Positions 16,301-50,306 of a stretch of DNA of 52,361 nucleotides are shown here, one piece after another (the stretch's first letter is position 1; each line of letters begins with the position of its first letter). Origin of the DNA: a virus. The notes under the pieces were generated by a model that saw nothing but the letters and a program-made list of their open reading frames with translations, did not search any database and was not told the DNA's origin. The stretch lies in IMG/VR virus record IMGVR_UViG_3300046004_001366, positions 1 through 52,361 of that record; one strand, given 5' to 3'. The position numbers were made by a program, and so were the translations under genes.

Positions 16301-19300
16301 GACACGCCCAGGCGGTCTGGTGATTGGTATCACGTCATCCAAGACGATGGACGGCAAAAGCTCGCTGGTGCGCAAGTATCTGGCTGCGCGTGGTGAACTC
16401 GTCGCCGCCTTCCGTTTGCCAACAGGAGCCTTCGGCAAGTACGCAGGCACCAAGGTTGTCACTGACATCATCATCCTCAAGAAGCGTGAGACTGTCCTAG
16501 AGCGCGATGCTGGGGGCGAGGGATGGATTAACACCGTTCGCGACACGGCCGGGCGCGACTTTGACATCAATGAATACTTCGTTGCCAATCCGCAGAACAT
16601 TCTTGGCGAGTTAGATTTTGGGCACGGCACCACCTTTAACCGTGAGGGCATGATCGTGAATCGGTTGCCGAATTACGAGCAAGTGCTGCCGCGCCTGTTC
16701 GAGCGCCTGCCCGAGAATGTGATGACGCCGTGGAATCCCGTCGGGCATGAGCGAATCATCAACAACACCACCAAAGAGCGCAGGCAGGGAGCCGCAGTAT
16801 TCGCCAATGACGACCTTTATGTCGTGGACGGCGAAAGCCTTGTTCCTTTGCAGGACCGCGCCAAATGGCAGACCAAGACAGGCACGGCGAAGCGTCTTGC
16901 CGAGGGTGTGTCACTCATCGCTATGCGCGACGCCTTCAACGCCGTGCTCGACGCCAACCGGCAAGGGTCGGACGGCGAGACACAGCGGAAAGCATTGCAG
17001 GAGGCTTATGCGTCCTTTGTGAAGGATCACGGCCCGCTTCACAAGTCGTTCATGCTTGGACGCTTCCGCAAGGCGGGCGACCAAAACGCCATTGACCTTC
17101 TGGCGCTTGTCGAGGTCGATGAAACGACCGGCGCGGAAAAGCCGCGCTCACTCATGCTGCGCAACACGATGCGCAGGACGCAACTCGACGCGAAGGGCAG
17201 CATCGCCGACGCCTACGCCTTGCACCGCTCCGAGACGCTCGACTTCGATGCGGCCGCAGTGGCGAAGCTGGCGGGCGACGACACCAGCCCGAACGATGTG
17301 ATCGCCTTCCTCCAAGAGAAGGGACTCGTCTTCAAAATGCCAGATGGCCGGTGGATGCCGAATGAAATCTATCTCGCGGGCAATGTCCGCCGCAAACTGC
17401 GCGAAGCCATCGCCGCCAAAGAGGACGGAGTTGAAGGCATGGACGTTAACATCGACGCACTGACGTCCATCATTCCCGAGGACATCCCGTATCACAAGAT
17501 CACCGTGCAGATGGGGGCGGCGTGGATTCCGACCTCCGACTATGAGCAGTTCATCACTGAACTACTCGGAGGCAATGCCGCCGATGTGCAGGTCGTCAAA
17601 GGCATGAGCGGCTACAATGTCCGAATCGGTGGGCGCACAGCGGACAGCCGCGACGCCCGCCAGACGTGGAACGTAGTGACTGAAGCTGGCCAATCGCTCC
17701 TTCACCCGAGCCGCATGTTCCAAGCCGCGATGAACGGCACCGAGTTAATCATCAAGCGGGAAGTTGAAGACGAGAACGGCAACAAGCGCGAGGAGGTGGA
17801 TGAGCCCGCCACCAGACGCGCTATCGCTATGCGCGACAGCATTCGTGACCGTCTCCAGATGTGGGTTTGGACGGATGAATCCCGCATTGCACGACTGACC
17901 TTGGACTACAACGAGATGAAGAACTCCGTCATCAACCCAGAGTTTGACGGCTCTCATTTACGCCTGCCGGGATTATCACTCACCTTGAGCGACAGCGGCG
18001 ACCCATTCGAGTTTCGTCAGCATCAGGTGAATGCCGTATGGCGTGGCATCCTTCAGAAGCAGGGCGTTTACGCCCATGAGGTCGGCACCGGCAAGACCTT
18101 CACTATGGCAGGCTTAGCAATTGAGGGCCGAAGACTCGGCTCACATCGCAAGCCGATCATCTTCGCTCACAACGCAAACGCCGCGAGCGTCGCCGCTGAC
18201 TTCCGTCTCGCTTACCCTGGCGCGAAGATCCTGTTCGTGGACAATCTTTCACCTTCCACCAAGGAGTTGACGCTTCGGCAGATCGCCACCGATGAATGGG
18301 ACGCCATCATTGTCCCGCACTCACTGGTGGACCGTTTCGGATTGAGGCCGGAAACTATGCGAGCGCTGGCACAACCAGAACTCGACCGCATTGAGTCTGA
18401 GTTCTGGGCAGAACTGGACGAGCTTGGCGTTGATTCCTCATCAATTGATTTGGATGACATGCGCGGCATGGGGCAAATCCTGAACCGTCTCAAAGGTTCA
18501 GCAACGGCCAAGGAACTCGCCAACGCTCGCCGCCGCATCATGACCCGCATCGAAAAGCAGGTCGCGAAATTCTCCGGCCCCGGTGTCGTGTACTTCGAGG
18601 ACATGGGTATTGATGCTGTGATTGTCGATGAGGCTCACGTCTTCAAGAAGATCAGTCTAGCGACGCGCAAGGTGATCAAGGGACTGAACAAAACCGAGTC
18701 AGGTAAAGGATTCCAACTCGGCCTGCTCACCGACTGGTTGAAAACACAGACAGGCGGCAAGGGCGTTCATCTCTTCACCGGCACACCAGTTACGAACACA
18801 CTCAATGAGGTGTTCAACATGATGCGCTTCGCGATGGATAAGGAAATGGGCGAGTCGGGCATCGACAACTTTGACGACTGGTATAACGATTATGCTGACG
18901 GATTCTCCGACACCGAGCCGACATCTGGCGGCACCTATGAAGAAGTTACCCGACTGAGGGGATTCCTCAATGTGCCAGAGCTTGCCCGCTTGGCAGGCCA
19001 AGCCTTTGATGTGGTGCGCGCCGACGAAATGCCAGAGTTCAAGCCCCGCGCTTCGCATGAGGGCATCACGGAAAAACCCATTGGACGACCGCACAAGCAG
19101 GTGCGCCCCATCGTGATTGAGCCGACATCCGTGGCGAAGCGACTCAAGGCGTGGATTCGTCAACGGTTCTTCTATTATCGCGGACTCTCTGGGCGTGAGC
19201 GCATGTTCCTGAAAAAGATGGGCGGAGATCAGCCCGTCGTCATGGATGGCGACGGTAAAGCGGGGGCGCTTGACCCGCGTTTCGTAAGCCCAACAGCCGA

Positions 19301-22300
19301 AGATGACGCAAACTCAAAAGTGAATTATGCGGTGCGTAACATCGTCGAGCACTACAACGAGCACGACCTCGCTACGCAGATGGTATTTGTAGAGCGTGGA
19401 GCAGGCGATTACACCGAGGCTGATGTTGCCGTTCGTGATGCCGAAGGGAAACCGCAATACGACAACGACGGCAACCGCGTCGAGGTCAAGGAGCGCCGGT
19501 TACAGTTCAATCTCCTGCGCGACATGGTTGAAAAGCTGGTCGCTGAAGGCGTGAAGCCGGAAGAGATCGCCGTTTTTCAAAACCTCAAACTGCTACCTCT
19601 GCCAGACGGCAAGGATGATATTCTTTTGAGAGTTCACCGTGTTAATGGGCCGGAAGACAAGGAGGAAGCGGCCAAACTGATGCGTGAGGGTAAAATCCGC
19701 ATCGCTTTTGGTGGCACCGAGACAATGGGCACAGGCGTCAACGCACAGACATGGATGCGCGCCATGCACCATCTGGACGTTCCTTACATGCCTGGAGAAC
19801 TTGAGCAGCGCAATGGACGCGGCTGGAGACAGGGCAATAAGTGGAACACCGTCTTTGAATATCGCTACACCGTTGAGGGTAGCCATGACGCGAAGATGTG
19901 GAGCACTCTGCTAAACAAGGTCCGGTTCATTGAACGGTTCATTGGGATGCTGCAAGGCAAGAACCTAAGTCGCAACTTGGAAGGCGACGGCGCAGATGCC
20001 GCCGACGACGAGGACGGCATGAGCAACGCGGACTTTGAACAGATGTTCTCGACTGCCGCAGGAGACCCGCGCCTTATCTTGCGTCTCTCCCTCGGCAAGA
20101 AGGTTGATCGCATCCAGCAGGCCAAGAACATGCATCTTCAGTTCATGGAGCAGACTCGACGCAAGAACGCCGCTATCGAGAACAATGAGATTCCGAGGTT
20201 GGAAGCTGCTGTTCGGCAGTTTGAGAAAGGCGACGAGCTTTATCAGCAGGTTGCTGGAAAACCATTCTCGGCAACTCTTCGCGGGGAAACTTATACAGAG
20301 CGCAAAGACTTCGATGAGGCTATGACACGCCTTCCGCGCTACTTGGATCGCAAAGAAATCGGCACCTACGGACCTTTCCGCATTTACATCCAACCAACAA
20401 TGGGCGGCGGTTATTACGAGCTATCAGGGCCGGATAACTTCAACGCGTCATTCATGAATCCAAGCATGGCTTCGCTTGAGGGCACGCTACGCGCCATGAA
20501 GAAAAAGGCAGAAGGCAAGGCCGAAGAAATTGCAACCCTTCAGAAGTCGCTCGTTCGAGCCAAGGATGAGATGTCGCGCCCATTCCCCAAGGAGGAGGAA
20601 CTCACCAAGGCTCAAAACGCGCTGGCAGTCATCGAGTCGGAGATTCGCATCAGCCCCTACCCGGCCCCCGGCTGGCTTCGAGTCGGAGCGCCCCAAGGCT
20701 CTCTCATGTACTTGAAGGAGAAGGGCAAATTGAACGCCTACGACGTGGAAGCGCATCGGTGGGATGAAAACAACTATTGGGCAATGATCAGCCGAGACGG
20801 CGAATTGTTCCCCATCCCCTACAATGAAATGCTGGACGCCACCGGGGCGCGCATCTTTGAAGATCACGACCACACGGCACCGCCCGAGGCTCCCCCAACA
20901 ACGGCAGACGGCCAACAAGGCTCATTCCCCGGTGTTGAAGTCGGACTCGATGCCGAGTTCGGTTATCGAACATTGATCGACCGAGTGACCGGCGAGCGCA
21001 GCATCGAGCACAAGTTCTACACGCGATACGCGACCGTCGCCGATGGCTTCTATAATGCCGCCGCAGGTGGCGGGCGACTGCCTGCCAATGCCGCCGACTA
21101 CCTTCCCAAGACTGTTGAAGAGCTTCAACGCCTGCTCGTCAGATCGGGCGCGGCGAGCGGTCTGTTCAATGGCAAAGATTGGAAGTTCCTCGCTCCCGGC
21201 GAAAGCGATGAGCTTTATAAGCCCACCGAGACATGGCGAGTATTTGCCCCTGGCGGATGGATGGTTGGCGAAGGAGCGTCCCCTCGCGAGGCATTCTTTG
21301 AGGCACGCAACCATGACCAGAACGGAGACACCTTCATGGACGCCATTCGTTATGCCGTGATGCAGTTGCCGGAATCTGAGGATGACATCAATGAACTCCT
21401 CAGAATCGCGTCCCAGCTACCCAGCGGTATTGAGTTCCAGATGATCGACCCTGGATTAGACGACCCCTTCGAGAGCGAAAACGATGATACCAACGTCTTC
21501 CGCCTCACAAGCGACGGCTACGGCATCTTAGGTAGTGGCGAAAGACGCGCATTCGCCCTTCGCGATGCGCTGACGCATGAGCGATTCGGACGCACATTCA
21601 AGGAGGCTCTCGCCATCTACAACGCGCCCCCAGCGAAAAACCCGCTGGAGCGACTTGCCGACGAATCACGCCTACTCGATACCGACCGCCGTAGCCGTGG
21701 GCTTTTCCGCCGTCGTGCCAAATTGCGCAAACTCCTCGATGTGATTGAGCGCCGACGCGCCGAGGTGGAAAGCAACGAGGACAGATACCGCAACCGTGAC
21801 GCGCAAGACGAGACGCTCCAAAGCCTCATTGCCCGCGAGAAGGCGCTGACCGAGAAACTCGCCGAGGTGGAGTCGTTCATCATTTACCGTGAGCGCACCG
21901 AGGAGCCTTTGCCTCTCGCTGCTGCGGACCGGCCAATGATGGACGCGGAGGAGTTCGCTGATGCGCTTGACGCCTTGAACTCCGACATGCCGAGCGAATC
22001 TGACCTGGACGACCTTCGCCAGCGCGCCGGTCTCGATTGGGGCCGCGAATACACAGACAGCGAGCTTGCCGGACTGTCTGGCGGTATGCGCGCAGGGATG
22101 CGGACCGCATACGATGACAAGCTTGACCGGCAGACGCACGAAGCTTGGAACGAAAAGGCTCACAAGCTCATTGATGAAGATCCTACCCGGGTGCTTGCCG
22201 ACTTGGTGAGCACGGCGACAGATCGCGGCTCCATCATCAACCCTGTTCAGGTCAAGGCATCGCAGATTCTTCTTCCGCAACTCATGCGCGAGGCAATCGC

Positions 22301-25593: not shown

Positions 25594-25901
25594 GGGAGGT
25601 GATCTTCGGGCAAATCGGTTCCAATGACTTGAGCCATTACCGTTGCCGCCCCCTGCTCCATCATCTCGATGTCAGTGAAGAGCGCTCCCTTGATTGCCCG
25701 ATAGCGGGCGATCTTGAGGCGGATTGCCATCATGTCGCCATCCAACGGCATTGTTTCAAGGATATCAGCGGCGAGCGCAGCAAGCTTGCCTTGTGCATCC
25801 GCTTGAAACCACTGCCAGCCGTGGCACCTCTTGAGCGACACGACAACGGCGGCATTCTTGAGGGCTTGACCCTGTGCAGTGATGGGTGGCGCGGTTATCA
25901 C
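25590..25901 (-). CDS. Small hypothetical protein after the portal (103 aa)
   Basis: The start is a GTG overlapping the portal TGA (GTGA), and its stop overlaps the next ATG. It contains helical segments (GKLAALAADILETMPLDGDM, then AIRLKIARYRAIKGALFTDI) and a conspicuous KRCHGWQWF stretch. No membrane segment. Coupling to the portal suggests a head-completion or connector-accessory protein, but the family was not recognised. Confidence 0.7.
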   Translation of the reverse strand: MITAPPITAQGQALKNAAVVVSLKRCHGWQWFQADAQGKLAALAADILETMPLDGDMMAIRLKIARYRAIKGALFTDIEMMEQGAATVMAQVIGTDLPEDHLP

Positions 25902-28027
25902 TGTGCAACCGGTTGAGGCTGACTCGCGGCCATGAGTTGCTGCTCGGTGGGCAGGGTAAGAACGGTATCCACATCGCGGACTCCGTTCCCCTTGAGCCTT
26001 TGATGAAAGAGCGGAGCGAGATTCAGGCGAACTTCGGGAGGCAACTGATAGTACATTATCCCGGTTTGAATTGCCTGATCTGCCATAGCCACTTGCTGCT
26101 CGCCGTGCATACGGGTCAACTCAAGCCTGATTTGCCACTTGAATTGACGAAGGTCAGCGCCGGAAAGCTGCTTGATGAGTAGCGCGCCCTGGGGACCCAT
26201 GACATGAAATACCTCCTCGTCGCGAGCGTGAGCAACGGAGAGGTAGATGCAATCTTCAACCGCTTGAGCGATGCCAATCTCCAAGTGGGAGATGAGCGGG
26301 GCGAATTGTTCCTGTCCGCTGCGGTCGATGTTCTTCACGCCCGTAGCAAGCTTGGATGTGTCCAACCCGGCCATGGCGGCATCATTGGCATTCGCGACAC
26401 CAGAAAGGTTGGTCATCATCTGCTGCACGATGCCAAGCAACTCTTGCAGGGATGCGCCTTCAAAATCGTAGAGAGACACGACTTCGATGATATCCTCGAT
26501 GCGTGTCGTGGGATTGGCCTTGGTGTAAGTCTGCCCGCCATTCAGGACAAGCGCCGGATTGGCTGCGCCTTCCACGGTCAGTTTGGGATTCCAGCAAATG
26601 ACCTTGCCGGAGCGACTGGTGCTCATTTCCCATCGTGCAATCACCAAGTCGCTGAACCGCTGAAGTTGCCAGAAGGCACTAACGACGCTTTGACCATGCC
26701 AACGACCGTCCACCGGGTTCACGCGCACGGTGCGATACGGGCGGCGGCGGTTGCGATAGACGTTGGCAACATAGTCGATGAGGATTGGACGGTGCGTGTC
26801 CTTGTCGATCAAGACGACGATGTTCTCGCGCTGGCCGTCGTTGTTGGCATCAATCCACATGTGGCAGCGAATGGCATGTACCATTGCGTCACCACGCTGA
26901 GAGAGCTTCTCCATGCTGCTTTCTCCGAGAGATGCGCGGCCATCGCTGCCTTGGGCTTCTGTTTCGGTGGTGCGCCCGCTCACATCGCTCAAGAGAGCCA
27001 TGACCCGAGGATACTCCTTTTCATCCCACACGCCGATTTTCTCCAGCCTGCGAATGTAATCCTCGACGATCTCAATGGCCGGAATGTCGGTGTATTCGCC
27101 AATGAACTCCGCCTCGTCCAAGTTCTTGGCATTGAGAGGCACAAGCAAGTCGCGATGAGGAACGATCTCGATTTGTGGACCTGCATAAATGACGTTCTTC
27201 CGGCGCACCTTCGTTTCCAAGAAAGTGAGTTCTGCGAATGGCATTGGCGTTTCTCCATCGCGCTTGAGAACCATTCCCACTCCTTCAACAAGGGAGAACT
27301 CGTCTGTCTCGAAGATGTAATCACCATCATTCGCCAAAATTGGCTCTGCCGTGGTTGGATCAACGGCGACGTTGGCATAGGTCTCGTAATACTCGATGCG
27401 CTCGACTTCCTCGATGCGAAGCACGCACTCGCCACGGATGAAAGCTAACTCGACGGCTTTCTCGAACTGGCTCTTTGCCTGCGCTTCGTTGAGTTTGTAC
27501 TGTGCCCACTCATTCGCTGCCGTGGCAGTGTCCACGCTCAAGCCCTGCATTGAGGGAGGAACGGGGGAGGCTGCAACCCAGGGTTCACTTTGGAAAAAGT
27601 AGTTCTGCGCACGGGCGATCATCTGCTGAACAAAGCGCCGGGTGTGCGGTAGGTGGACGTTTTGCCCTTCGGCATAGATGCCGCCGACGAGACGCTTCCT
27701 CCAGTCAAATTTCTGGTGATAGACGAGATCCCACAAATCCCGCTGCGCCATGAACTTCATGCCCTCGACGCTCATGGGGTCTCCGCCTATGTCGTGCGTG
27801 AACTCAGGATCATCGAAACGACCACTGTTGCGCCCTGACTCGTTTTCTAGCTCAAGGGCAAAGTTGAGCGCTTTTTGGACAACAAACTCTTCCTGCTCTC
27901 GCGTGAGTTCAAGCCCACCTTGGAAGATGGCGATTGGCTCATGCGGATTTTCTTCCGTGGGAGTGTGGTCAGTGACGGGAACCCGTTGGAGAAACGCGGC
28001 GATCTGTGTGTCTGCGTTGTGGAGCAT
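25898..28027 (-). CDS. Portal (head-tail connector) protein
   Basis: 709 residues, a typical length for large podoviral portals. Recognisable features: N-terminal helices around RDLWDLVYHQKFDWRKRLVG; a central beta-rich wing (residues about 200-330); the stem and crown region with YRTVRVNPVDGRWHGQSVVS; and FEGASLQELLGIVQQMMTNL followed by SGVANANDAAMAGLDTSKLA, matching podovirus connector proteins in which a conserved helix precedes a Met/Thr-rich tunnel loop. It would form the dodecameric ring through which DNA is packaged and ejected. It lies on the minus strand behind replication genes, about 20 kb from terL. The start ATG is preceded by AACCTCCTATG. Confidence 0.8.
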   Translation of the reverse strand: MLHNADTQIAAFLQRVPVTDHTPTEENPHEPIAIFQGGLELTREQEEFVVQKALNFALELENESGRNSGRFDDPEFTHDIGGDPMSVEGMKFMAQRDLWDLVYHQKFDWRKRLVGGIYAEGQNVHLPHTRRFVQQMIARAQNYFFQSEPWVAASPVPPSMQGLSVDTATAANEWAQYKLNEAQAKSQFEKAVELAFIRGECVLRIEEVERIEYYETYANVAVDPTTAEPILANDGDYIFETDEFSLVEGVGMVLKRDGETPMPFAELTFLETKVRRKNVIYAGPQIEIVPHRDLLVPLNAKNLDEAEFIGEYTDIPAIEIVEDYIRRLEKIGVWDEKEYPRVMALLSDVSGRTTETEAQGSDGRASLGESSMEKLSQRGDAMVHAIRCHMWIDANNDGQRENIVVLIDKDTHRPILIDYVANVYRNRRRPYRTVRVNPVDGRWHGQSVVSAFWQLQRFSDLVIARWEMSTSRSGKVICWNPKLTVEGAANPALVLNGGQTYTKANPTTRIEDIIEVVSLYDFEGASLQELLGIVQQMMTNLSGVANANDAAMAGLDTSKLATGVKNIDRSGQEQFAPLISHLEIGIAQAVEDCIYLSVAHARDEEVFHVMGPQGALLIKQLSGADLRQFKWQIRLELTRMHGEQQVAMADQAIQTGIMYYQLPPEVRLNLAPLFHQRLKGNGVRDVDTVLTLPTEQQLMAASQPQPVAQ

Positions 28028-28033
28028 AGGAGG

Positions 28034-28156
28034 TTATATTCCTTCATTATCCGTTCCTATCAAGACCGGATATTGAAGAGCCTGCCGCCGGTTCCAAGGC
28101 TCCTCTTGCGATGAGCCAAGCAGAGAAGGTGAACCAGCGGCAGGCAAGGGGTTCAT
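28034..28156 (-). CDS. Tiny hypothetical protein filling the gap before the portal (40 aa)
   Basis: The ATG overlaps the stop of the Tad2-like gene (ATGA) and the TAA lies six bases before the portal ATG, so the frame fills the gap exactly. The product is polar: MNPLPAAGSPSLLGSSQEEP followed by WNRRQALQYPVLIGTDNEGI. The segment LGSSQEEP and its DNA closely resemble LGSSKEEP in the zinc-knuckle protein at 36600-36776, suggesting a duplicated fragment. Function unknown. Confidence 0.5.
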   Translation of the reverse strand: MNPLPAAGSPSLLGSSQEEPWNRRQALQYPVLIGTDNEGI

Positions 28157-28752
28157 TCGATGATCTGCCAATCTTCAGCGAGCATGTCGGTTTGAGAGGC
28201 AAGCCAGCCGGTCAGCACCTTTTTATCCGCCGTGAACATTCGGATTGAGCCGAGTGCATCGAAGGTCTCGCCGCCAAGTTCAGATTCGATCACGGCTCGA
28301 AGCGCTGGATCGTGGATAACCTTCGTCGGAATGCCGTCACTGGCAGGCAGCAGGAACAGAAACATCCCTTTACCATTCCAGCCACTCCGAGCCACACGCT
28401 TGCCAAGTTTGAGGGCGACAATAGCTTCCCCGAAAGTGAGATGGCCGGAGATCGGGATGAGGGGCATGTATCCTTCCTCGAAAGCCTGCGCCGGGCTGAT
28501 GCTCATGTAACCGTCGTTGTAGCGAACGAAGTAATCCCCGACTTGAGGCTTGTGCTTGGACACAAATTCATCAGAGACGATGATAACAGGCGCGTTTGCG
28601 TCATCTCCAAGATACAGAGGAGTTTCACCAGTGATAACTTGAGGAGCGATGCCGGTGATTTTCTCAGCTTCAACAATCTTGTGGGACTTCCAACGGTGCA
28701 AAGGTCGGTGTATGACATTTTCAGGGATGGGGGGTGTGGATGTATCGTTCAT
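28153..28752 (-). CDS. tad2: Tad2-like anti-Thoeris protein (DUF2829) with N-terminal extra domain
   Basis: 199 residues from the ATG at 28752 (preceded by ACCACCATG); a TTG at 28827 would extend it. The C-terminal half (about 104-199) is a DUF2829 domain: LTFGEAIVALKLGKRVARSG followed by WNGKGMFLFLLPASDG, and the ending TGWLASQTDMLAEDWQIIE. Tad2 proteins of this family bind the gcADPR signal made by Thoeris immune systems and so block NADase activation. The N-terminal half holds a small domain (FVSKHKPQVGDYFVRYNDG, then FEEGYMPLIPI) that often precedes DUF2829 in phages. The gene sits between the helicase loader and the portal. The family call is strong; anti-Thoeris action in this host is inferred. 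Confidence 0.8.
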   Translation of the reverse strand: MNDTSTPPIPENVIHRPLHRWKSHKIVEAEKITGIAPQVITGETPLYLGDDANAPVIIVSDEFVSKHKPQVGDYFVRYNDGYMSISPAQAFEEGYMPLIPISGHLTFGEAIVALKLGKRVARSGWNGKGMFLFLLPASDGIPTKVIHDPALRAVIESELGGETFDALGSIRMFTADKKVLTGWLASQTDMLAEDWQIIE

Positions 28753-28823
28753 GGTGGTGCTTTTTGGTTCAGAGGGCGCAGGCGGAATTGCCTGTGATGC
28801 CCTCAAATTGGTTTCTGGTGAGT

Positions 28824-29657
28824 TCAAAAGTTGCTCGCCTCATCATCGTCGGTGCCGCGCATGGAATCCCATTCGCCGTAGCACAGAGCCACGCCACCGG
28901 AACGCAGCCGGTCAACGATACGACTGCCCAGCCACTTCTTGACTTCCGTAGCGATGGCATTGCCAAGGAGGATCGACGGCAACCCGTTTTTGTGGCGACG
29001 GTCCAAGATGGCGAAAAGAATCTCCTCGCCATCCTTGGGCAAGTCAGTGAGGCAAATCTCATCCAGCACCAGCAACGCAGCCGTTGCGTAGGTCCGCACA
29101 ATCGCCTCCGTGGTGTCGGTCTTGTAGGCGCGATGATAGTCAGCGAACAGGCGGGCGCATTCGGCCCAGGAGACGGACTTGCCCTTGACGATGTACTGAA
29201 TGGCTACCGCTGCCGCAAGGTGTCCCTTCCCTATCCCCGGAGTCCCGGCCAAGATCAAGTTGCGCAAGCCTCCTGCTGCAAAGATGGAGGTCTTCTCCAA
29301 GAACGTGCTCGGATGAGCATAGCCTTTGCCCTCTTTGACGTGATTACGCTCGATCAAGAAATTGCTGAGAGTCGCGTGCCTTACGTCGGCTGGAATGCCT
29401 GCGGCTATCACCCGCTTCTTGCAGCGCTCAAGGAATGCCTCATGCTCACAGGTGGCACAGACATAAACCAGTTTGCCCGCCTGCCATGATGCTTCCCGGT
29501 TGAGCGCATTGAGCATTCCGCCATGGATGCCGCAAGGCATGGCTGCGGGGGCTGCGTCGATTTCCTGCTCGAACGCTATGCTTCGGGCACGAACGATTTC
29601 AAGCAGTCGGTCAAGGCTGTGCAGGGAGAAGGCTGAATCTGGTATTTCGGTGGTCAT
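28824..29657 (-). CDS. DnaC/IstB-like replicative helicase loader (AAA+ ATPase)
   Basis: 277 residues from the ATG at 29657, four bases after the upstream stop; the frame is open to 29717. The N-terminal part has a possible zinc site (CGIHGG and CATCEH, about residues 42-70). The AAA+ core has Walker A GTPGIGKGHLA, in which a Gly replaces the usual Thr/Ser after Lys, and Walker B ALLVLDEICLTD, followed by a sensor-like SILLGNAIATEV. The length and the pairing with a DUF1376 replication protein match DnaC-like loaders that deliver the host or phage DnaB helicase to the origin. The K-G variation could weaken ATPase activity. Confidence 0.8.
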   Translation of the reverse strand: MTTEIPDSAFSLHSLDRLLEIVRARSIAFEQEIDAAPAAMPCGIHGGMLNALNREASWQAGKLVYVCATCEHEAFLERCKKRVIAAGIPADVRHATLSNFLIERNHVKEGKGYAHPSTFLEKTSIFAAGGLRNLILAGTPGIGKGHLAAAVAIQYIVKGKSVSWAECARLFADYHRAYKTDTTEAIVRTYATAALLVLDEICLTDLPKDGEEILFAILDRRHKNGLPSILLGNAIATEVKKWLGSRIVDRLRSGGVALCYGEWDSMRGTDDDEASNF

Positions 29658-30833: not shown

Positions 30834-32528
30834 TTAGAAGCGGGCAGAAGCCGCCATTGAGCCGTCGTTGATGGTGGCAATACGAAGCATCTTCTGGCGT
30901 GTGCGATGAATCATCTTCTCGGTCATGCTGCCCGCTACGAAGGGGATAAACTGCTGACTGGCTGATTTGCCGCCAACACGGTCAACCCGTCCCGTGGCCT
31001 GCTCCATTTTGATAACGTGATCCGTTGGCATGATGTAGGAGACCCGTGCGCGCCAGCCATTGACATCGTGCAGCGAAACGGAAGCGCCCCCGGCTCCAAT
31101 GTTGTTGACGAGAACGTGTTGCCTGTCCGCCTGAAACTCCCGCTCCCAATACTGCCGCTTCTTCAAGGGCTGCCCACCATAGAACCCGGCAGAGGTGTTC
31201 AGCAGCTTCGACAGTCCAATGCGGGACTCATTGAAGTTCATAAACACGGCGACGCTTTTCCCGTCGCGCACGTCTTTCTTGATGCGGTCGGCCAGATACG
31301 GCACCAGCAGCATTTCACACTTCTTCCACATCTGCATGTGAGCCTGCTGCTCTTTGATGCGGAGTTGCGGAGCGCTCATTTGCAGGGCGAGACGACGAAG
31401 CATGTCCTCGGTGGCTTTCCATTCAGCTTCAACCTTCGCGGCTTCGGGAATATCGAATGGCAGCGTTTCAATGGTGGTCTCGGGGCATTCTTCGCCCAAG
31501 TCCTGCTTCCTAACGCGAGCGCCACGCCACGGGAAAAGCTGAGTGTTGATGCGCAACAGGTGGTGGTGCTTACCGTCCCACACATAGCTTTTCCCTTTGT
31601 TGTAACAGCCATGGTTCACAAGGAAGCGATGCCAATCGTCATCGCCCTTGTGCAATCCTGAAATGCGCCCGGCAAAGCGCATCTCAATCGGGGATGTTGC
31701 TATGGTGGCTGAAGCGACAATGATCGGTATGCCCTGGCGGACTGCCGCCGAACAACAGCGCACAGTCAACGTGTCGTCATGCCTCAATGCCTGCGCTTCA
31801 TCCAGAATGATCACGATTTCGCCCGGGTGCTTCCATGTGAATTTGCCCGTGGCATCCATGGTCGCGATGTGATCACGGAAACCACCGCGAACCGCTTCAT
31901 AAGTCGAGATGAAATGCGGAGTGATGCCGAAGTGCTCGCAGGCGCGTTGCCAGCCTGCCGCCCCGACAGTCGGGCAAAGGATAGCCGGGTCGCGCCCCGT
32001 GGCGATGGCGGCAGCGAGATCCTGATAGGTCTTGCCAATGCCCATGTCTGAGAAGTCCACAGCGCCGGGGTATCCCCATTCTGCCCGGCCCTGCATCAGC
32101 GCACGGTAAATCTGGCGGGTTGGTATCACCTGATACCCGCGCAACTTCGCCTCGATTTCGCTCGGCAGGTCAGGCAGCACGATTTGACGAGGCGCAGGAG
32201 CGCTTAACGCTAGGGGTTGATCGGTTGGTGCTTTCCCAAGTGCGATTATCTTCTCGCGGCCAACAGGAGTCAGGGTCAAGCCAGCGGGAGTCTCAAGGAG
32301 CCACTGACGCAAGAACCAAGCGCCGTTGAGTAGGCAGGTTGAAAAGCCGCGCTCCAACCATGCGCGCTTGTGCTTTACCCATGCCTGCTTGAAGGCAAAA
32401 TCATGGCTGATACCAATCTTGAGTTCACGAAACCGGCAGGTGCCGTCACGGGTCAGCTTTTGATGGAGCGGAGGCAAGGCTAGCCATTGCAACTCCACGG
32501 GTGGAGATGGGTCGGTAATGATGCTCAT
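30834..32528 (-). CDS. SNF2-type SF2 DNA helicase/translocase
   Basis: 564 residues. Walker A DMGIGKT (161-167), motif Ia-like ILCPTVGAAGW, DEAQ (243-246), SAT (273-275), a C-terminal lobe and motif VI QATGRVDRVGGKS near 516-528 give a complete ATPase. The N-terminal 150 residues are a phage-specific extension. Such helicases in replication operons probably remodel forks or recombination intermediates, or open the origin. A strong SD-like AAAGGAGG precedes the ATG, which overlaps the stop of the upstream recombinase (ATGA), so the two are translationally coupled. Confidence 0.85.
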   Translation of the reverse strand: MSIITDPSPPVELQWLALPPLHQKLTRDGTCRFRELKIGISHDFAFKQAWVKHKRAWLERGFSTCLLNGAWFLRQWLLETPAGLTLTPVGREKIIALGKAPTDQPLALSAPAPRQIVLPDLPSEIEAKLRGYQVIPTRQIYRALMQGRAEWGYPGAVDFSDMGIGKTYQDLAAAIATGRDPAILCPTVGAAGWQRACEHFGITPHFISTYEAVRGGFRDHIATMDATGKFTWKHPGEIVIILDEAQALRHDDTLTVRCCSAAVRQGIPIIVASATIATSPIEMRFAGRISGLHKGDDDWHRFLVNHGCYNKGKSYVWDGKHHHLLRINTQLFPWRGARVRKQDLGEECPETTIETLPFDIPEAAKVEAEWKATEDMLRRLALQMSAPQLRIKEQQAHMQMWKKCEMLLVPYLADRIKKDVRDGKSVAVFMNFNESRIGLSKLLNTSAGFYGGQPLKKRQYWEREFQADRQHVLVNNIGAGGASVSLHDVNGWRARVSYIMPTDHVIKMEQATGRVDRVGGKSASQQFIPFVAGSMTEKMIHRTRQKMLRIATINDGSMAASARF

Positions 32529-33541
32529 GCTACCCTCCTTTCAAAAGGCGTGATGTTTGGCGCGCTGTGATTATGTGCTTGGTCCATTGGGCTGGTTCTA
32601 CGTGTTGTCAGGCGAGGGAGGCAGTGAGCGTAAATTTGTGTCGTCGTGACATGCTTGTGACCCATCACCTCTTGAAGTTCCTGAATAGGCATTCCCGACA
32701 TAAGCATTTCGGTGGCAAAGGAGTGTCTCAATGAATGGACGGTGACACGCTGATTGCCGCTCCATAAGCGAACCGCTGCCGAGATGGCCTTGCCTAACGT
32801 ATCACGGTGGACATGATGCCTGCGCACAATGCCAGAACGCGGGTCGCGGCTCTCTGTATTACCAGCCCATACCCAAAACCAAGGCCAATCCTTGCCGGTG
32901 AACTTGGTAGATGGAACTTCAACACCAGGACGATCATTGCGGCGGTCATGCTCCCACACTGCCCGCATCCGCTGCTCCTGCTCTTTGAGCGCTGGAATAC
33001 ACGACTCAGGCAGGAATGTGACACGGTCCTTATCCCCCTTCCCTGATCTGATTACAATCTGCCGTTGCGCATAGTGAATATCCTTCCAGCGCAGGCTAGC
33101 AAGATCGTGACTGCGTAACCCGGAGCCATAGCCAATCTCCGCCATGAGCCGGTTTTGACCTTTCATGCAGGCAAGTAGCGCCATCATGTCCTCATGCGCT
33201 AACCACACGGGGAGTTTCTTGGGCCTGCGCGCCTTCGCCCAAGTCCCAAGATCACCTAACGGCTTCTCAATGACATGACGATAATAGAACACCAATGCAT
33301 TACGAAACAGGTTCTCGGAAGCGATTGACCAATGACGGGCCTTTGACTCCACGTACAGCCGCGCCAGTTCCTCGGGTGGCAGGGCCGCAAATCCCGGAAC
33401 TCTCACAGAAAAACGCATGAAGGCGCGGAGATGCCCTGTGTAACTGCTCTCCGTTGTGATTGCCCGTGCGCTCTTCGATGTCGCCATGACAACCCGCATA
33501 CGTTGAATGCGTTGCTCGATGATGTGTTCGTAGTTTGTCAT
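32525..33541 (-). CDS. Tyrosine recombinase, integron-integrase-like
   Basis: 338 residues. The N-terminal SAM-like DNA-binding domain (about 25-105) is followed by a catalytic domain with Arg143 (GSGLRSHDLASLRW), Lys near 168-171 (SGKGDKDR), His269-x-x-Arg272 (HSLRHSFAT), His295 (GHKHV) and nucleophile Tyr304 (TQIYAH). All catalytic residues are present. An insertion before the HxxR box (DPRSGIVRRHHVHRDTL) resembles the extra motif of IntI integrases. It could resolve phage multimers, integrate, or act at a non-canonical site. It lies inside the replication operon, away from the other integrase. Confidence 0.9.
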   Translation of the reverse strand: MTNYEHIIEQRIQRMRVVMATSKSARAITTESSYTGHLRAFMRFSVRVPGFAALPPEELARLYVESKARHWSIASENLFRNALVFYYRHVIEKPLGDLGTWAKARRPKKLPVWLAHEDMMALLACMKGQNRLMAEIGYGSGLRSHDLASLRWKDIHYAQRQIVIRSGKGDKDRVTFLPESCIPALKEQEQRMRAVWEHDRRNDRPGVEVPSTKFTGKDWPWFWVWAGNTESRDPRSGIVRRHHVHRDTLGKAISAAVRLWSGNQRVTVHSLRHSFATEMLMSGMPIQELQEVMGHKHVTTTQIYAHCLPRLTTRRTSPMDQAHNHSAPNITPFERRVA

Positions 33542-38329: not shown

Positions 38330-39120
38330 TATGCGGCTCCTTTCCCCTTGAGGCTGCGGGCGAGAACATTGAGTTGCTCGCTGTGACATTCCTCGAACTT
38401 GGCAGGCAATCCAAGCTTGGGCAGGAAGCCAACCAACTCAGCCCAGCTTGTGATGCCGCTCTGTTCGGCGCGCTGACCGACAAGTTCAGCCATCCATCCG
38501 TCGATTCCGACAGATCGGGAACCGTGCAACCAGAGTTTGCCAATCGCGGCTTCCGACAAGTCTCCAAGCGTGCGCTGACCGGTCTCGTCGGACGGGTCGG
38601 CAAGCGCGGCCCATGTTCCAGCAGTTTCCTCCGTGCCAGCACCAAGGAGCGGCACATGGCAGAACTGTGACCAATGAGCGTCATCAGCGGCTTTCAGGCC
38701 AATGGTCTCGCGCATAGGCTGGCCGAGTCGCACGGCGTCATCATCATCACCCGTGATCAAATGGAAGTAATCAACGAGGGCGTAGCGCTTGCCGTAGGTA
38801 TGCGACATGCCTTGCCGCTGCGTGAGATTGACGCCGCGATTACCCTCGGGGAACAGGACTTCAAAAGGCACGAAAACGACATCTTCGCCGTGTGATACCT
38901 GCATGATGAGATGTTGTATCCATGCTTCACCGTCCTTGCGGATGGTGGAGGGGGCAAAACCAACGGCAATGTTTGCCTCATTGAGCGCGGGTTGCAGGAT
39001 GTCCATGACATCGGCATAGGACGCATAGGCAGAGTTGATGCCGGTATTCTTGGCCGTCTTGATGACGACGAGGCACTTGGAGCGGACCGCAGCAACTGCG
39101 GCGAGTAGGGAGGGAGGCAT
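38329..39120 (-). CDS. ERF-family single-strand annealing protein
   Basis: 263 residues. The family signature is present: YASYADVMDILQPALNEANI, followed by MQVSHGEDVVFVP, the TQRQGMSHTYGKRYALVDY element and the acidic GDDDDAV patch. ERF proteins form rings and anneal complementary single strands during phage recombination and circularisation. The C-terminal third (GITSWAELVGFLPKLGLPAK) is phage-specific. Together with the RecE-like nuclease and RusA it forms a complete recombination module. Confidence 0.85.
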   Translation of the reverse strand: MPPSLLAAVAAVRSKCLVVIKTAKNTGINSAYASYADVMDILQPALNEANIAVGFAPSTIRKDGEAWIQHLIMQVSHGEDVVFVPFEVLFPEGNRGVNLTQRQGMSHTYGKRYALVDYFHLITGDDDDAVRLGQPMRETIGLKAADDAHWSQFCHVPLLGAGTEETAGTWAALADPSDETGQRTLGDLSEAAIGKLWLHGSRSVGIDGWMAELVGQRAEQSGITSWAELVGFLPKLGLPAKFEECHSEQLNVLARSLKGKGAA

Positions 39121-40373
39121 TATAGGGAGGATGTTTGGGTTTCAATCCATGTTGCGAATGATGCGACCTTGTGGGCGATCTCTGCGGCGACTCGCTTGCC
39201 GTCTTCGGTGGTTGCGGTTGGCACGGCAAGGCCGCGAACCTGATCGGCGAATGCCTTCAACTTGGTTTTGTCTGGTGCGCGTGCTGCTTTCGCTTCGGCA
39301 TCAGCTTTCGCTTTTGCTTCAGCAGCGATTCGGGCTTTTTCCAGTCTGATGCGCTCGGCTTCGGCTAGGCGCTCAGCTTCACGGGCGGCTTCACGGGCGG
39401 CGGCTTCACGGGCGGCGGCTTCGCGCTCCGCCTTGAGCAATGCTTCTTGTGCGCGCAGTTTTGCAGCAGCTTCAGCCTCTACCTTCTGGCGTTCAGCCTC
39501 CAGCTTCCGGCGCTCAGCTTCGCGCTCGGCGGCGATACGATCAGCTTCAGCTTTAGCGGCAAGGCGTTCAGCTTCGCGTTCCTCTTCAATCTTCCGGCGT
39601 TCTGCTTCGGCGGCAAGGCGTTCAGCTTCGCGTTCGGCAGCAAGGCGCTCTGCCTCAATGGCTGCGGCTGTCGCTTCGGCTCGAAGCCTCTCCATTTCGA
39701 GGCGGACACGCTCGCGCTCCGCTGCTTCTTCGGCTTCACGCAATGCCCTGGCTTCGGCTTCTGCTTTTTCCTTCGCAATGCGCTCCTCCTCGGCTTTGCG
39801 AGCAGCTTCAATCTTTGCCTCATGCAGCAGGCGATAGTCCGCTAGCAATTGGTCAAATCCTTCAGGAGTCAGAATATCGAAGGGTGGCAACGCTTGGCCC
39901 TCGGTGACGTATGGAGCCAAAGCGGCAGTACGCTCGATGATGATGCGCGCTTTTTGCTCGGCAAGCAGGCGAGCGGCGAAGTTCTCTTGTTCCTCAAGGT
40001 AGGTTTCAAGGGGAACGATTGCGGCGAGCAAAATGGCGTTGGTTCCGTCGATAGCGCGACCCATGAGGAGGCTTTCTTCCTTCAGCTTCTTCCGCACCTT
40101 CTCAGCCTCGACGCGGATTGCCTTGAGTTCGAGACGTGCCACGCGGGCGAGTTTCATGTCACCGGTTTGGTCGGCACTCGTCACCTTGATGGACATTGCC
40201 TTCTGTCTCCATTCGTCCGCCTTAGCAAATGCGGCGGCAAACCCATCTCGGATATTGGTCAGCATCGACGGGGCCAACTGGTCGGCATGAGGAATGGTGA
40301 TCTCGGTGGACTGCGCGCCAGTTGTTTCAGGCGGCAGGACTTCTATGGTGGGGGTAGTTTCAGTATCTTGCAT
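39120..40373 (-). CDS. Long coiled-coil protein next to ERF
   Basis: 417 residues from the ATG at 40373. The N-terminal globular part (about 1-135) includes TNIRDGFAAAFAKADEWRQK and LKEESLLMGRAIDGTNAILL. A very long Glu/Arg/Ala coiled coil (about 170-370) with repeats such as AEREAERLAAE and EAERRK follows, then a small C-terminal domain (KTKLKAFADQVRGLAVPTAT). TolA-like annotation would only reflect the coiled coil. Its position immediately upstream of ERF suggests a recombination or single-strand-DNA partner. Its stop overlaps the ERF start (TAATG). The repetitive DNA is protein-driven. Confidence 0.75.
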   Translation of the reverse strand: MQDTETTPTIEVLPPETTGAQSTEITIPHADQLAPSMLTNIRDGFAAAFAKADEWRQKAMSIKVTSADQTGDMKLARVARLELKAIRVEAEKVRKKLKEESLLMGRAIDGTNAILLAAIVPLETYLEEQENFAARLLAEQKARIIIERTAALAPYVTEGQALPPFDILTPEGFDQLLADYRLLHEAKIEAARKAEEERIAKEKAEAEARALREAEEAAERERVRLEMERLRAEATAAAIEAERLAAEREAERLAAEAERRKIEEEREAERLAAKAEADRIAAEREAERRKLEAERQKVEAEAAAKLRAQEALLKAEREAAAREAAAREAAREAERLAEAERIRLEKARIAAEAKAKADAEAKAARAPDKTKLKAFADQVRGLAVPTATTEDGKRVAAEIAHKVASFATWIETQTSSL

Positions 40374-40402
40374 ATGTGTGTTGGGGTGAGTTGAGTTCTG
40401 GT

Positions 40403-40780
40403 TCAGTCTTCTGCCGTTCCGGTGGTGTGGGCTTCTTTGTGCCAAGCGATGCGGTCCTTGTTCTCTCCGCAGAGGTATTCTTCGGCCTCGCTCCATAGCG
40501 ACTCCTTCAGGTATTCATCCACTCGGCGACCTTCGACGCGGAAGCCTTCAAGCTTCCATTCTCCTTCCTTGCCCGAGACTTCGAGGACGAGCGGAGAGTG
40601 TTCGGGCCAGTCAATCAGGTCGTGATTGCGTGCCAAAGCGTCATCACGCAGGTCAGAGCGACAGCCAAGCTTTTCAGCCCAAGATGCGATGTCAGTTGCG
40701 AGTGATCTCAGCACTTCCGGCATTGCCTCAAAGGATGATTGAGATTGCAAAGGCCGCGATAGGATATGTGCAGGGGTCAT
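40403..40780 (-). CDS. Hypothetical protein (125 aa)
   Basis: An acidic, helix-rich sequence: FEAMPEVLRSLATDIASWAE, then SPLVLEVSGKEGEWKLEG and a C-terminal helix ESLWSEAEEYL. No cysteine cluster or membrane segment. It opens the recombination part of the leftward operon. The ATG is preceded by AACCATTATG. Function not recognised. Confidence 0.6.
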   Translation of the reverse strand: MTPAHILSRPLQSQSSFEAMPEVLRSLATDIASWAEKLGCRSDLRDDALARNHDLIDWPEHSPLVLEVSGKEGEWKLEGFRVEGRRVDEYLKESLWSEAEEYLCGENKDRIAWHKEAHTTGTAED

Positions 40781-42585: not shown

Positions 42586-43200
42586 TTACGGCACGATGAT
42601 GACTTGTTGAGTCGTGCCGTCCTTGTTTTGGATCATGTAGTGACCTGCGCCCTGGTGAATGATGGTGGCACCTCCTGCTGCTCCTCCGTGTGTGGTGAAC
42701 ACGCCTCCTGAGCCAGTGATGACAGTCGCCCCTGTGGATGGTTTGGGTGTAGCCCAAAATATCGGGTTCACGCCCTGTGCCGCCATGTTCTCGGGACTCA
42801 TGGGGTTGCTGTAAGGGTTGTATGAAGCTCTTGGAGTATTGGCGGCGGCAATCTGCGCGTTGAATGCTGCCGTGTCCCTAGCCCGGTCTTGGGCTTCCCT
42901 TGCTATTTGGGCCTTCTGCTCCTGAAACTCTCTCTCTATTTTAGCCATGCCTGCCTCCAACTTGCGTTGTCTCTCTTCTTCCTCTGCAACAAGCCGCTTG
43001 TGAGTAATCTCAGCTTCAGCCTTCACCTTCGCGTGATAAATCACGTTCGAGCGTTCCTGCGCCTCTTCCTTTTCAGCCTGGATTTGGGCAAAACGCTTTT
43101 GACGTTGAACCTTTATGGACTGGTCTAAAGCGTAAAACAGGGATGCGACAACAGCGATAAACAAGAAAGCCCTCATGTTGAAACATCGCGTTTCCTCCAT
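42586..43200 (-). CDS. Membrane-anchored coiled-coil protein sharing a peptide with the giant protein
   Basis: 204 residues from ATG 43200; an ATG at 43176 is an alternative. The N-terminal hydrophobic segment MRAFLFIAVVASLFYALDQS is followed by a long charged coiled coil (RQKRFAQIQAEKEEAQERS to KAQIAREAQDRARDTAA). A C-terminal region then carries PMSPENMAAQGVNPIFWATP, almost the same as PMSATNMAAQGVNPLYYGG at residues 33-51 of the giant protein. The tail is Gly-rich with a beta end (HYMIQNKDGTTQQVIIVP). The topology suits a membrane or periplasmic docking partner; this is inference. Confidence 0.7.
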   Translation of the reverse strand: MEETRCFNMRAFLFIAVVASLFYALDQSIKVQRQKRFAQIQAEKEEAQERSNVIYHAKVKAEAEITHKRLVAEEEERQRKLEAGMAKIEREFQEQKAQIAREAQDRARDTAAFNAQIAAANTPRASYNPYSNPMSPENMAAQGVNPIFWATPKPSTGATVITGSGGVFTTHGGAAGGATIIHQGAGHYMIQNKDGTTQQVIIVP

Positions 43201-43232
43201 GTCCCGCAAGATTTAATAAAGGTGAACGACGA

Positions 43233-43278: not shown

Positions 43279-43530
43279 ATGGCAACCAAACAGACCGCAA
43301 ACAAGGGGCAGACCAGCATCAACATTCATCCTGGCATTCTCAAGCAGGGCCGGGCAATCGCGAAAGATGATCATCGCTCATTCTCCAGCTTCGTCGAAGC
43401 GTGCATTGCAAAGGAGATCCGCCGCTATGTCGCCATGAAGGCGCTCGATGCCGACTTAGCAAAGGAAGAGGAAGCTCAACGTCGCCGCGCTTTAGCCAAG
43501 GCACCGCGCAAGCTTTCAACTTCCCGGTGA
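43279..43530 (+). CDS. RHH-like DNA-binding protein (83 aa)
   Basis: QTSINIHPGILKQGRAIAKD is the strand and helix 1, and SFSSFVEACIAKEIRRYVAM is helix 2 of an RHH fold; a basic Lys/Arg-rich C-terminus follows. TTGACA at 43244 may be a -35, but no convincing -10 is seen. The last 55 bases overlap the 3' end of the converging integrase gene, so the two may regulate each other. It could be an excision or integration-control factor; inferred from position. Confidence 0.7.
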   Translation: MATKQTANKGQTSINIHPGILKQGRAIAKDDHRSFSSFVEACIAKEIRRYVAMKALDADLAKEEEAQRRRALAKAPRKLSTSR

Positions 43531-44597
43531 GTGTATCGGCGCTGTATCTGAACGTCATCGTGATCGGTGACGAGCCGCGCCAACTCGCCGGACACGCCCG
43601 CAGAGGTTAGCCGTGTCGTCATGGAGTGCCGGTAGCTGTGGAAACTCTTCAGATGCACCACTCGAACGCCGCGCATTTTTGGCTGCGGGTCAATGCCACC
43701 TTTCCGCATGAACTGGATAAACCGCTCGCTGGCTTTCCCGTTCCGATTGTCAGCATGGAATATCGTCTTGAAGTTGCCCAAACGCGTGACCCGTAGCGCC
43801 AGCCAGTTCGGCAATGGTAAAACCACGGTCCTGCCGCCCTGCCTGCCTTTTTTCCGTGGCTGCAATGTCACCAGATCGCCAGATATGCTGGCGGCGGTCA
43901 CGTCGAGCAAGTCTTGCAGCCGGTGTCCTGTGTGCCAGCCAAGCGAACAAAGCGCCGTCCAGTCCTTCCGCTTCACCTTGCGGCACTGTCGCAGGATAAC
44001 GGCGTGCTCCGCCCGCGTTAGGTGAAGCTTCTCGACGGCATCAGGGGTTGCCCGCACAACTCCTGCACATGGGTTGCCCGCTCGATGTCCGTGGTTCATC
44101 GCCCGCCCGAACATCATCGACGCGAAATTGAGGTGATCCCCTGCCGTCGTGGCGCTGAACTTCTTCCGCGTAGCGTCGTAATAGTCCTGCATGTCCTGAA
44201 TCGTTATGTTCTGCACCGGCTCACTTGCGCGCTTGCCTGCCCATTTCGCTAGGCTCGTCCATTGAGCCGAGTACTTGCGGCGGGTGCCTGCGCTCACGTT
44301 CGCTGCATCCAGGAAGGCTTTGGCGCACTCGGCAAGCGATGGCACAGGGACAAGCTCAGAAATGCCCGCCAGACGCAAGATGTCGTTCACCATCTCCAAG
44401 GCTCGCTCTTTGGTCATGGTGCCAGCCTTCGCGGCCCCGCTTGCCTGCTCCAGTGTCGCGGCGATTCCTGCCGCCTGAGCTTTGTCAGTGACTCCAGTAC
44501 CTTTCTGCCTCCACACGTATTTCCCTTTCGCGGCATCCCAAACCCGGAATGCAGCGACCCAAGTATCAGAGCCGGATGGACGAAAGACAGTAGCCAC
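43476..44597 (-). CDS. int: Phage tyrosine integrase
   Basis: 373 residues with the GTG at 44597 (product begins with VATVFRPSG, typical of this integrase type); the frame is open to 44711. The N-terminal arm-binding domain lies at about 5-30, the core-binding domain at about 90-185. The catalytic residues are Arg226 (GWHTGHRLQDLL), Lys near 250, His320-x-x-Arg323 (FHSYRHSMTTRL), His346 (VTDHDDV) and Tyr355 (RRYTH). Repeats around the gene fit an attP region. It is unlike the recombinase at 32525-33541. The ATGCAAA/TTTGCAT inverted repeat (44613-44637) overlaps its start region. Confidence 0.85.
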   Translation of the reverse strand: MATVFRPSGSDTWVAAFRVWDAAKGKYVWRQKGTGVTDKAQAAGIAATLEQASGAAKAGTMTKERALEMVNDILRLAGISELVPVPSLAECAKAFLDAANVSAGTRRKYSAQWTSLAKWAGKRASEPVQNITIQDMQDYYDATRKKFSATTAGDHLNFASMMFGRAMNHGHRAGNPCAGVVRATPDAVEKLHLTRAEHAVILRQCRKVKRKDWTALCSLGWHTGHRLQDLLDVTAASISGDLVTLQPRKKGRQGGRTVVLPLPNWLALRVTRLGNFKTIFHADNRNGKASERFIQFMRKGGIDPQPKMRGVRVVHLKSFHSYRHSMTTRLTSAGVSGELARLVTDHDDVQIQRRYTHREVESLRGALAKARRR

Positions 44598-44711
44598 AAA
44601 GAATCCCACAAAATGCAAATATATGTTCACTTTGCATTCACTTTGTCGCAAAAACCGCAGAAACACGCCGAAACCTTGAGGAATAAGGCGAAAACGGATA
44701 TTCATGGGCAC

Positions 44712-48512: not shown

Positions 48513-50306
48513 TCACCAGTGACCACCTTTTGCGGGCCGTTCGTCGGGCATTCCCTCAATCCGTGGACGTGCAAGATGTGGCCGCGTGAAGGTCGTGGCG
48601 CTCGCTATGCAGGCAAGGCCAATGCCGGTCATCATCACGAAGTCATCGTGGCACCCTGCGAGCTTCATCGCGCCCTCGGTGCCGTCCTTGTGCCGCACGA
48701 AGGTTCTGCACTCCTTGAGAATCCACGGGAAGGCGATCAAGATTCCTGCGCCCGGCTTCTGGCACTCGCGGATGTGGCGCGCCAAGTTCTCGACGAGGTA
48801 GCGCTTCGATTCGGTGGTTGTCTGCCAACCCAGCAGGCCGGAATGCTCGCCGGAGTCGATTTCCACCCGCTTCCGCTCGCGCTCGAAGATCATCACGTTC
48901 TTGCGCCTCAACTCGGTAATGAGCAACTCGCCGCGATTCGCCTCGGGAACGGTCATGCACCGGCCATAGTAGCCGGACATGCACGCGACCACTTCGGCGA
49001 GTATGTCCTGATCCCATGCAATGCCGGGCATGAGAGACATGACCAACTCAGGAGCGCACCATTTGCCGCGATGATTGTAAAACCCATCCCGCAACACGGC
49101 GACGGCGTGCTTGTCCGGGTCTGCGCCTTGGACGAAGCTGCGCCCCTGGCTGTTGTCGGCTGGCGTGATGTATCTCCGCCCTTCCTCGGGTTCCTCCAGT
49201 AGCGCAACGGTTGCCTGCTCCATGGCGCACGGCTGAAAGCGGATGCGTTGATAAAACAAGTCGTCAGGCTCGCGAACAAGATTCCCGTAATGGATGTCAG
49301 TCGCCCGGCTTGCTGCGTATGCGTCCAGCACCTCCAGCGCGGCGAGATCGAAGCGCGAAGGTGACGAAGCCTTGAATCCATCCTCCTCGAACGTGGGATA
49401 CTCGCGATCCCGCTTCATCAGGTCTCCTCCGCACTCGGGGGCGTTCAGCTTGTTGTGATACCAAGCGATTTGCTCCGGCTCTAACTGCAACTGTGCCCAT
49501 ATCCGCAGCGCTTTCGTGTCACCGGCTAATCGGATGCGCTCGCGCAACGTCTCAGGCGTATCGGCTGTGTCCAGCCTGGCCCGGCACCGGTCGAACTTAA
49601 ACCAAGGGGCGAAAACCTTGATGTAACCGTTCCCCCACTGCCCGGCTGATGCCTGCGCAATGCTGACTGCGCCCTTCCATGTCTCGGGAAAGACGCCCTC
49701 CGGCCCTTGTGCCGTGCTTTCCATGATCACGGCTGTTCCCGGCCCGTCGCCAACGCAGTTCAAGACCGAGTTCAGCACGTCGGCCGCATTCTTCGCGCCA
49801 TCTGTCGGCCAACGCGCAACCTCTGTGGCGAGGATAGCGTGATAGTTGCCAGATCGTCCAGCTTCCTTGTCTCCTGCCGTCTCACGTTCCCACAATGTCC
49901 CGTTACTCACGGTGGCACGCTCCATGTTCGCGGTGAACTCGTTGCCCCATGCGCCAAACTTGTCGGTGTTCCCGTAGTAGCGGAGGATCTTCCAAAGGTT
50001 GTCGGTCTGCGATGCCTGCCCACCAATGACGAGGATCTTCATTTTCACGCACCGGCCAAGGACGTAGAGCACCTCGACGCTGATGGTGCTGCAACCCTGC
50101 TGGCGCGGTTTGTAGATGATGAGCCGGATTGGCCGTTTCTCTCTCAAGCACAGCGCGACGGCTTCACCCACCTGGACTTGGAGATAGTTCGCGTTCGGTG
50201 CGGCATCACTCGCGCCGACGTTCTTGCCTTCGATGCGCCCATAAAGCTCGAACCATGCGACGGGGTTGGCCTCGAATACGGCTCGCTCGATTTGTTCAGG
50301 ACTCAT
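48513..50306 (-). CDS. terL: Terminase large subunit
   Basis: 597 residues. The ATPase has the deviant Walker A KPRQQGCST (66-74) typical of TerL, a possible motor Glu in ILATEVARWPTDGA, and ESTAQGPEG as the coupling motif. The RNase H-like nuclease has GADPDKHAVAV, an acidic VPEANRG and CHDDFVMMTG as metal ligands. It packages DNA through the portal and cuts it. The gene points leftward, opposite to the capsid genes that begin 460 bases away. Confidence 0.9.
   Translation of the reverse strand: MSPEQIERAVFEANPVAWFELYGRIEGKNVGASDAAPNANYLQVQVGEAVALCLREKRPIRLIIYKPRQQGCSTISVEVLYVLGRCVKMKILVIGGQASQTDNLWKILRYYGNTDKFGAWGNEFTANMERATVSNGTLWERETAGDKEAGRSGNYHAILATEVARWPTDGAKNAADVLNSVLNCVGDGPGTAVIMESTAQGPEGVFPETWKGAVSIAQASAGQWGNGYIKVFAPWFKFDRCRARLDTADTPETLRERIRLAGDTKALRIWAQLQLEPEQIAWYHNKLNAPECGGDLMKRDREYPTFEEDGFKASSPSRFDLAALEVLDAYAASRATDIHYGNLVREPDDLFYQRIRFQPCAMEQATVALLEEPEEGRRYITPADNSQGRSFVQGADPDKHAVAVLRDGFYNHRGKWCAPELVMSLMPGIAWDQDILAEVVACMSGYYGRCMTVPEANRGELLITELRRKNVMIFERERKRVEIDSGEHSGLLGWQTTTESKRYLVENLARHIRECQKPGAGILIAFPWILKECRTFVRHKDGTEGAMKLAGCHDDFVMMTGIGLACIASATTFTRPHLARPRIEGMPDERPAKGGHW

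Follow-up and report, generated by a model that had tools for sequence, protein, structure and literature searches.

Does the short peptide that is shared by two otherwise unrelated proteins of this uncultivated phage act as a common docking address, or is the likeness a coincidence? The window, i.e. the whole stretch of DNA that was analysed, spans 52,361 bases and covers one IMG/VR virus record in full, although that record may itself be a fragment. The first-pass annotation had reported nearly equal peptides in a giant protein and a membrane coiled-coil protein, and had suggested that both might be packaged or docked by the same partner, or that one mimics the other. Both copies were confirmed. 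The peptide PMSATNMAAQGVNP is encoded at nucleotides 7458-7499 (+) and comprises residues 33-46 of a giant polyvalent protein of 5944 amino acids (7362-25196, +). Its counterpart PMSPENMAAQGVNP is encoded at nucleotides 42763-42804 (-) and corresponds to residues 125-138 of a membrane coiled-coil protein of 196 amino acids (42586-43176, -), counted from the ATG at 43176 (the open reading frame, 42586-43209, opens at 43209). A BLASTP comparison of the two proteins gave a match of 19 residues (31-49 of the giant), S[ND]PMSxxNMAAQGVNP[IL][FY][WY], with 13 identical and 17 positive positions (35.8 bits), and nothing else meaningful, in agreement with the claim that their remainders are unrelated. 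A degenerate DNA search of the window with up to three mismatches recovered the core at these two sites only, with 0 expected. A DPMS likeness in the portal protein was weak and is not kept in the portals of relatives, and this candidate was dropped.

With low-complexity regions masked, the giant scored at most 73 (ungapped, BLOSUM62) in comparisons with the other proteins of the window, and this top score belongs to the shared peptide. When 78 foreign DarB-like giants (equal to 61 window-equivalents) were compared with the same window proteins, the highest score was 61 (mean 51.1, sd 3.7), corresponding to a Gumbel P of 2.8e-4; this null consists of real proteins and already contains the local G-hydrophobic-[ND]-P idiom described below. 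None of 400 masked local shuffles reached 73 (P 6.7e-4). Of 300 unmasked shuffles, seven did so, and the weaker P of 0.015 is due to inflation by the coiled-coil composition. With composition adjustment, BLASTP of the small membrane protein against the window proteome gave an E value of 3e-5, or about 1e-3 for all pairs. Exact matches of at least nine residues were not found between the window proteins and 82 foreign giants. A 9-mer common to two proteins in locus L049 was set aside, since by sequence judgement it probably belongs to a lytic-transglycosylase-type segment of both. Taken together, the match exceeds chance: its probability is about 3e-4 to 7e-4 when the giant is compared with the other window proteins, and about 1e-3 when all pairs are considered. 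It is real but isolated, and statistically notable. The score of 73 against a maximum of 61, the P values of about 3e-4 to 7e-4 and the BLASTP E value of 3e-5 favour the reading that the two copies may represent a short linear docking motif under selection at the amino acid level in two otherwise unrelated proteins, to which we give close to an even chance.

The two copies are identical at 32 of 42 nucleotides, which might point to a recent short recombination or duplication that carried the segment from one gene into the other. But third positions match at 7 of 14 sites, the flanking DNA is unrelated, and identical codons are used at three of the ten degenerate shared residues, as in unrelated codons (3.4 are expected from independent use of the genome's codons). 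The codons thus look independently chosen, which makes a recent DNA duplication or recombination unlikely; we consider such copying highly improbable, and a single recombination event, offered earlier as an alternative, is disfavoured. In an old copy with no function, the peptide would have decayed before the codons became random, which leaves peptide-level selection or coincidence. Since the peptide was kept while seven of the ten degenerate shared codons differ, any old shared segment would have been under selection. The same independent behaviour of the codons also speaks for coincidence, in which two disordered linkers would each contain a common short helix closed by Gly-hydrophobic-Asn-Pro, with no shared partner or function. 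We regard coincidence as a serious possibility, somewhat short of even. Overall, the choice between the two is about even, with the functional docking motif weighed slightly above coincidence.

The local sequence idiom bears directly on this choice. Among viral proteins, relaxed searches detected the core NMAxQG[VLFM][ND]P in several that are unrelated to the two window proteins, RecT and a tyrosine integrase included; the relaxed core combined with the PM-Ser part gave no matches. A search of 84,980 genomes for the exact core yielded only the variant NMAAQGLNP, in one clostridial helical protein family. The recurrence of this core in unrelated proteins weakens the docking motif and argues for coincidence, as does the frequency of its ending: compared to shuffled phage proteins, G[VIL][ND]P is about three times and A..G[VIL][ND]P about four times more common. 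We take this type of ending to be a helix C-cap type of sequence. A similar case is found in some relatives of this phage, in which virion structural proteins upstream of the giant (L055, L074, and L014; L074 and L014 assigned to phrog_8003) keep GVNPxSGR[YF]AG after a helical stretch. They resemble the shared peptide in their helix end, which is of the MAAMGVNP type in L074 and similar in L055 and L014, but are a different protein and continue with SGRYAG; homology to the two proteins of the window was not detected. Against coincidence stands its probability of only about 3e-4 to 1e-3 under a null of real proteins that already includes the idiom. Moreover, the match runs beyond the idiom, to PMS, N, M and the aromatic tail.

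For the docking motif, the nature of the giant is of importance. It comprises a disordered N-terminal tail, a long helix (residues 51-118), InPase and LPD37 domains, a DNA methylase and a SNF2-type helicase region. It matches phage proteins that are annotated as DarB-like antirestriction proteins (those of Burkholderia, Klebsiella and Pseudomonas phages among them), with 29-39% identity across stretches of as many as 1900 residues. Judged from homology and domain matches, it is a DarB-like protein, with homologous methylase and helicase regions within one very long polypeptide. In P1, the N-terminal 30 residues of DarB suffice for capsid targeting, the capsid-targeting sequence of T4 IPIII is cited alongside it, and no consensus signal is visible among the Dar proteins (PMC9024508). 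JC1 gp69, another DarB-like protein, was found in virions by mass spectrometry (PMC9144972). The docking motif is supported by the DarB-like character of the giant together with the capsid targeting by the N-terminal residues of P1 DarB: P1 DarB is likewise a large protein of this type with a short N-terminal address region, comparable to the position of the window peptide at residues 33-46. In contrast, the signal of P1 lies within residues 1-30, and the putative address of the window at 33-46. A further difference from the P1 Dar proteins and T4 IPIII is the second copy, which is located in a membrane protein encoded outside the virion cluster and nearer to the C-terminus. Other internal virion proteins do not share the window peptide and it is not conserved in relatives, as a capsid-targeting sequence might be; we regard such sharing or conservation as supportive rather than strictly required, because no consensus is visible among the P1 Dar proteins either. 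The giants of Bcep22-like phages (BcepIL02 gp70, JC1 gp69) have a homologous methylase and SNF2-type helicase region (about 30% identity), but the N-terminus of the BcepIL02 giant is unrelated, and no comparable peptide is shared with another BcepIL02 protein.

The nearest relatives, based on giant, TerL, portal and scaffold, are the IMG/VR records G001, G008, G020, and G023, with 32-34% identity in TerL. A scan of DarB-phage loci (3.7 million translated residues) that allowed up to four substitutions did not find the peptide, nor was its exact core detected elsewhere in IMG/VR. Six named phages (five scanned over most or all of their genome, one in part) and five relative records were compared, and in none did the giant share a comparable peptide with another open reading frame; such matches reached at most 6-8 residues. 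The lack of the peptide or a comparable pair in any DarB-type relative weakens the docking motif, and that no relative repeats the sharing speaks for coincidence. The first-pass annotation had held that absence from both proteins in all relatives would indicate chance or a single recombination event. The absence holds, but it is weak counter-evidence because the relatives are distant (TerL identity of about 33%) and do not encode the membrane protein. The four nearest relatives instead keep the segment SGxxAxxGxPxWRxFVxNxAF near the N-terminus of the giant (E of about 1e-8 among them). It occurs once per record, only in the giant and in an otherwise variable N-terminal region (L023, L030, L044, and L051), and is a candidate for the targeting segment of this phage group. 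By eye, its part SGFAAxxGxPVW appeared similar to the window peptide, but profile comparison with hhalign and HMMER gave no support for a counterpart. A segment confined to the giants, with a profile that does not match the window peptide, further weakens the docking motif.

The model of the membrane protein (from the single sequence) shows a hydrophobic N-terminal helix, a continuous helix from residue 2 to 112, a linker bearing the peptide and a low-confidence beta-rich end. Relatives were found neither in phages nor in IMG/VR or 32 relative records, the best weak match being noise on inspection. One weak match among phages, with an E value of 0.1, is to the pilot protein of a microvirus and reflects coiled-coil similarity, and searches of protein families, structures and PDB sequences gave no significant match. 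The gene is located between small genes that read as ribbon-helix-helix type and a tyrosine integrase gene, away from the virion genes. That the protein has no relative and is encoded beside an integrase rather than virion genes also weakens the docking motif. The same surroundings suit a sub-case of docking, in which the membrane protein would be a moron expressed from the prophage, a decoy that displays the giant's peptide and blocks entry or assembly steps of related phages that come in later (superinfection exclusion). In favour of such mimicry, the gene stands alone between these neighbours, is absent from relatives and has a GC content of 0.53 compared to 0.57 for the window, and the excess of positive charge (+4) that follows the hydrophobic segment points to a coiled coil in the cytoplasm. 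However, the protein has no known homologue, and no promoter-like site was found for its gene; we consider a decoy quite unlikely. A role as phage i-spanin was rejected, given the position by the integrase rather than in a lysis module, the charge pattern that suggests a cytoplasmic and not a periplasmic coiled coil, and the lack of a family match.

If the docking motif is functional, the peptide would form a small N-capped helix in a flexible linker, with a Ser cap, the residues xxNMAAQ, a Gly stop and a hydrophobic-Asn-Pro exit followed by an aromatic tail. In favour of such a motif, both copies fall in predicted low-confidence, Pro-flanked linkers in the structure models: that of the giant in the N-terminal tail just before the confident helix 51-118, and that of the membrane protein with PENMAA as a six-residue helix of low confidence. 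The copy of the giant would then act as an address for targeting or docking, comparable to the N-terminal signal of P1 DarB. The membrane protein would present its copy at the tip of a coiled-coil stalk anchored in the membrane and bind the same partner. Selection, the helical form of the peptide, a binding partner and the virion-borne or prophage-expressed state of the small protein are all what we infer. The sequence data neither establish nor exclude the shared address. Rather doubtful is the further step that the same docking peptide on an injected DarB-like giant and on a membrane protein of the prophage region could indicate a shared route of packaging and ejection, or a superinfection-exclusion decoy for the partner of the giant. 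Capsid recruitment of DarB-type giants has been mapped in P1, where the Dar proteins show no consensus signal, and a defined peptide of 14-19 residues common to a second protein would offer a tangible candidate signal that can be mutated. If the match is a coincidence, it provides a yardstick for matches of this kind in a proteome of this size, at about one in a thousand.

Some additional features of the genome were observed. The portal protein is SU10-like. The portal and large terminase genes (25898-28027 and 48513-50306, both -) are opposite in strand to the giant and tail genes. In G001 and G008 they are co-directional with the giant, and the window genome is rearranged. The record contains two tyrosine integrase genes (32525-33541 and 43476-44711, both -). 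The latter product has weak similarity (24%) to the integrase of an Akkermansia plasmid, which is a hint of a host among the Verrucomicrobiota. The product of 28153-28827 (-) has a Tad2-like domain (Thoeris anti-defence 2; Pfam E 2e-21) at its C-terminus, and a 458-residue protein without a family match, encoded at 39120-40496 (-), contains a long coiled-coil stretch that is extremely rich in Ala, Glu, and Arg.
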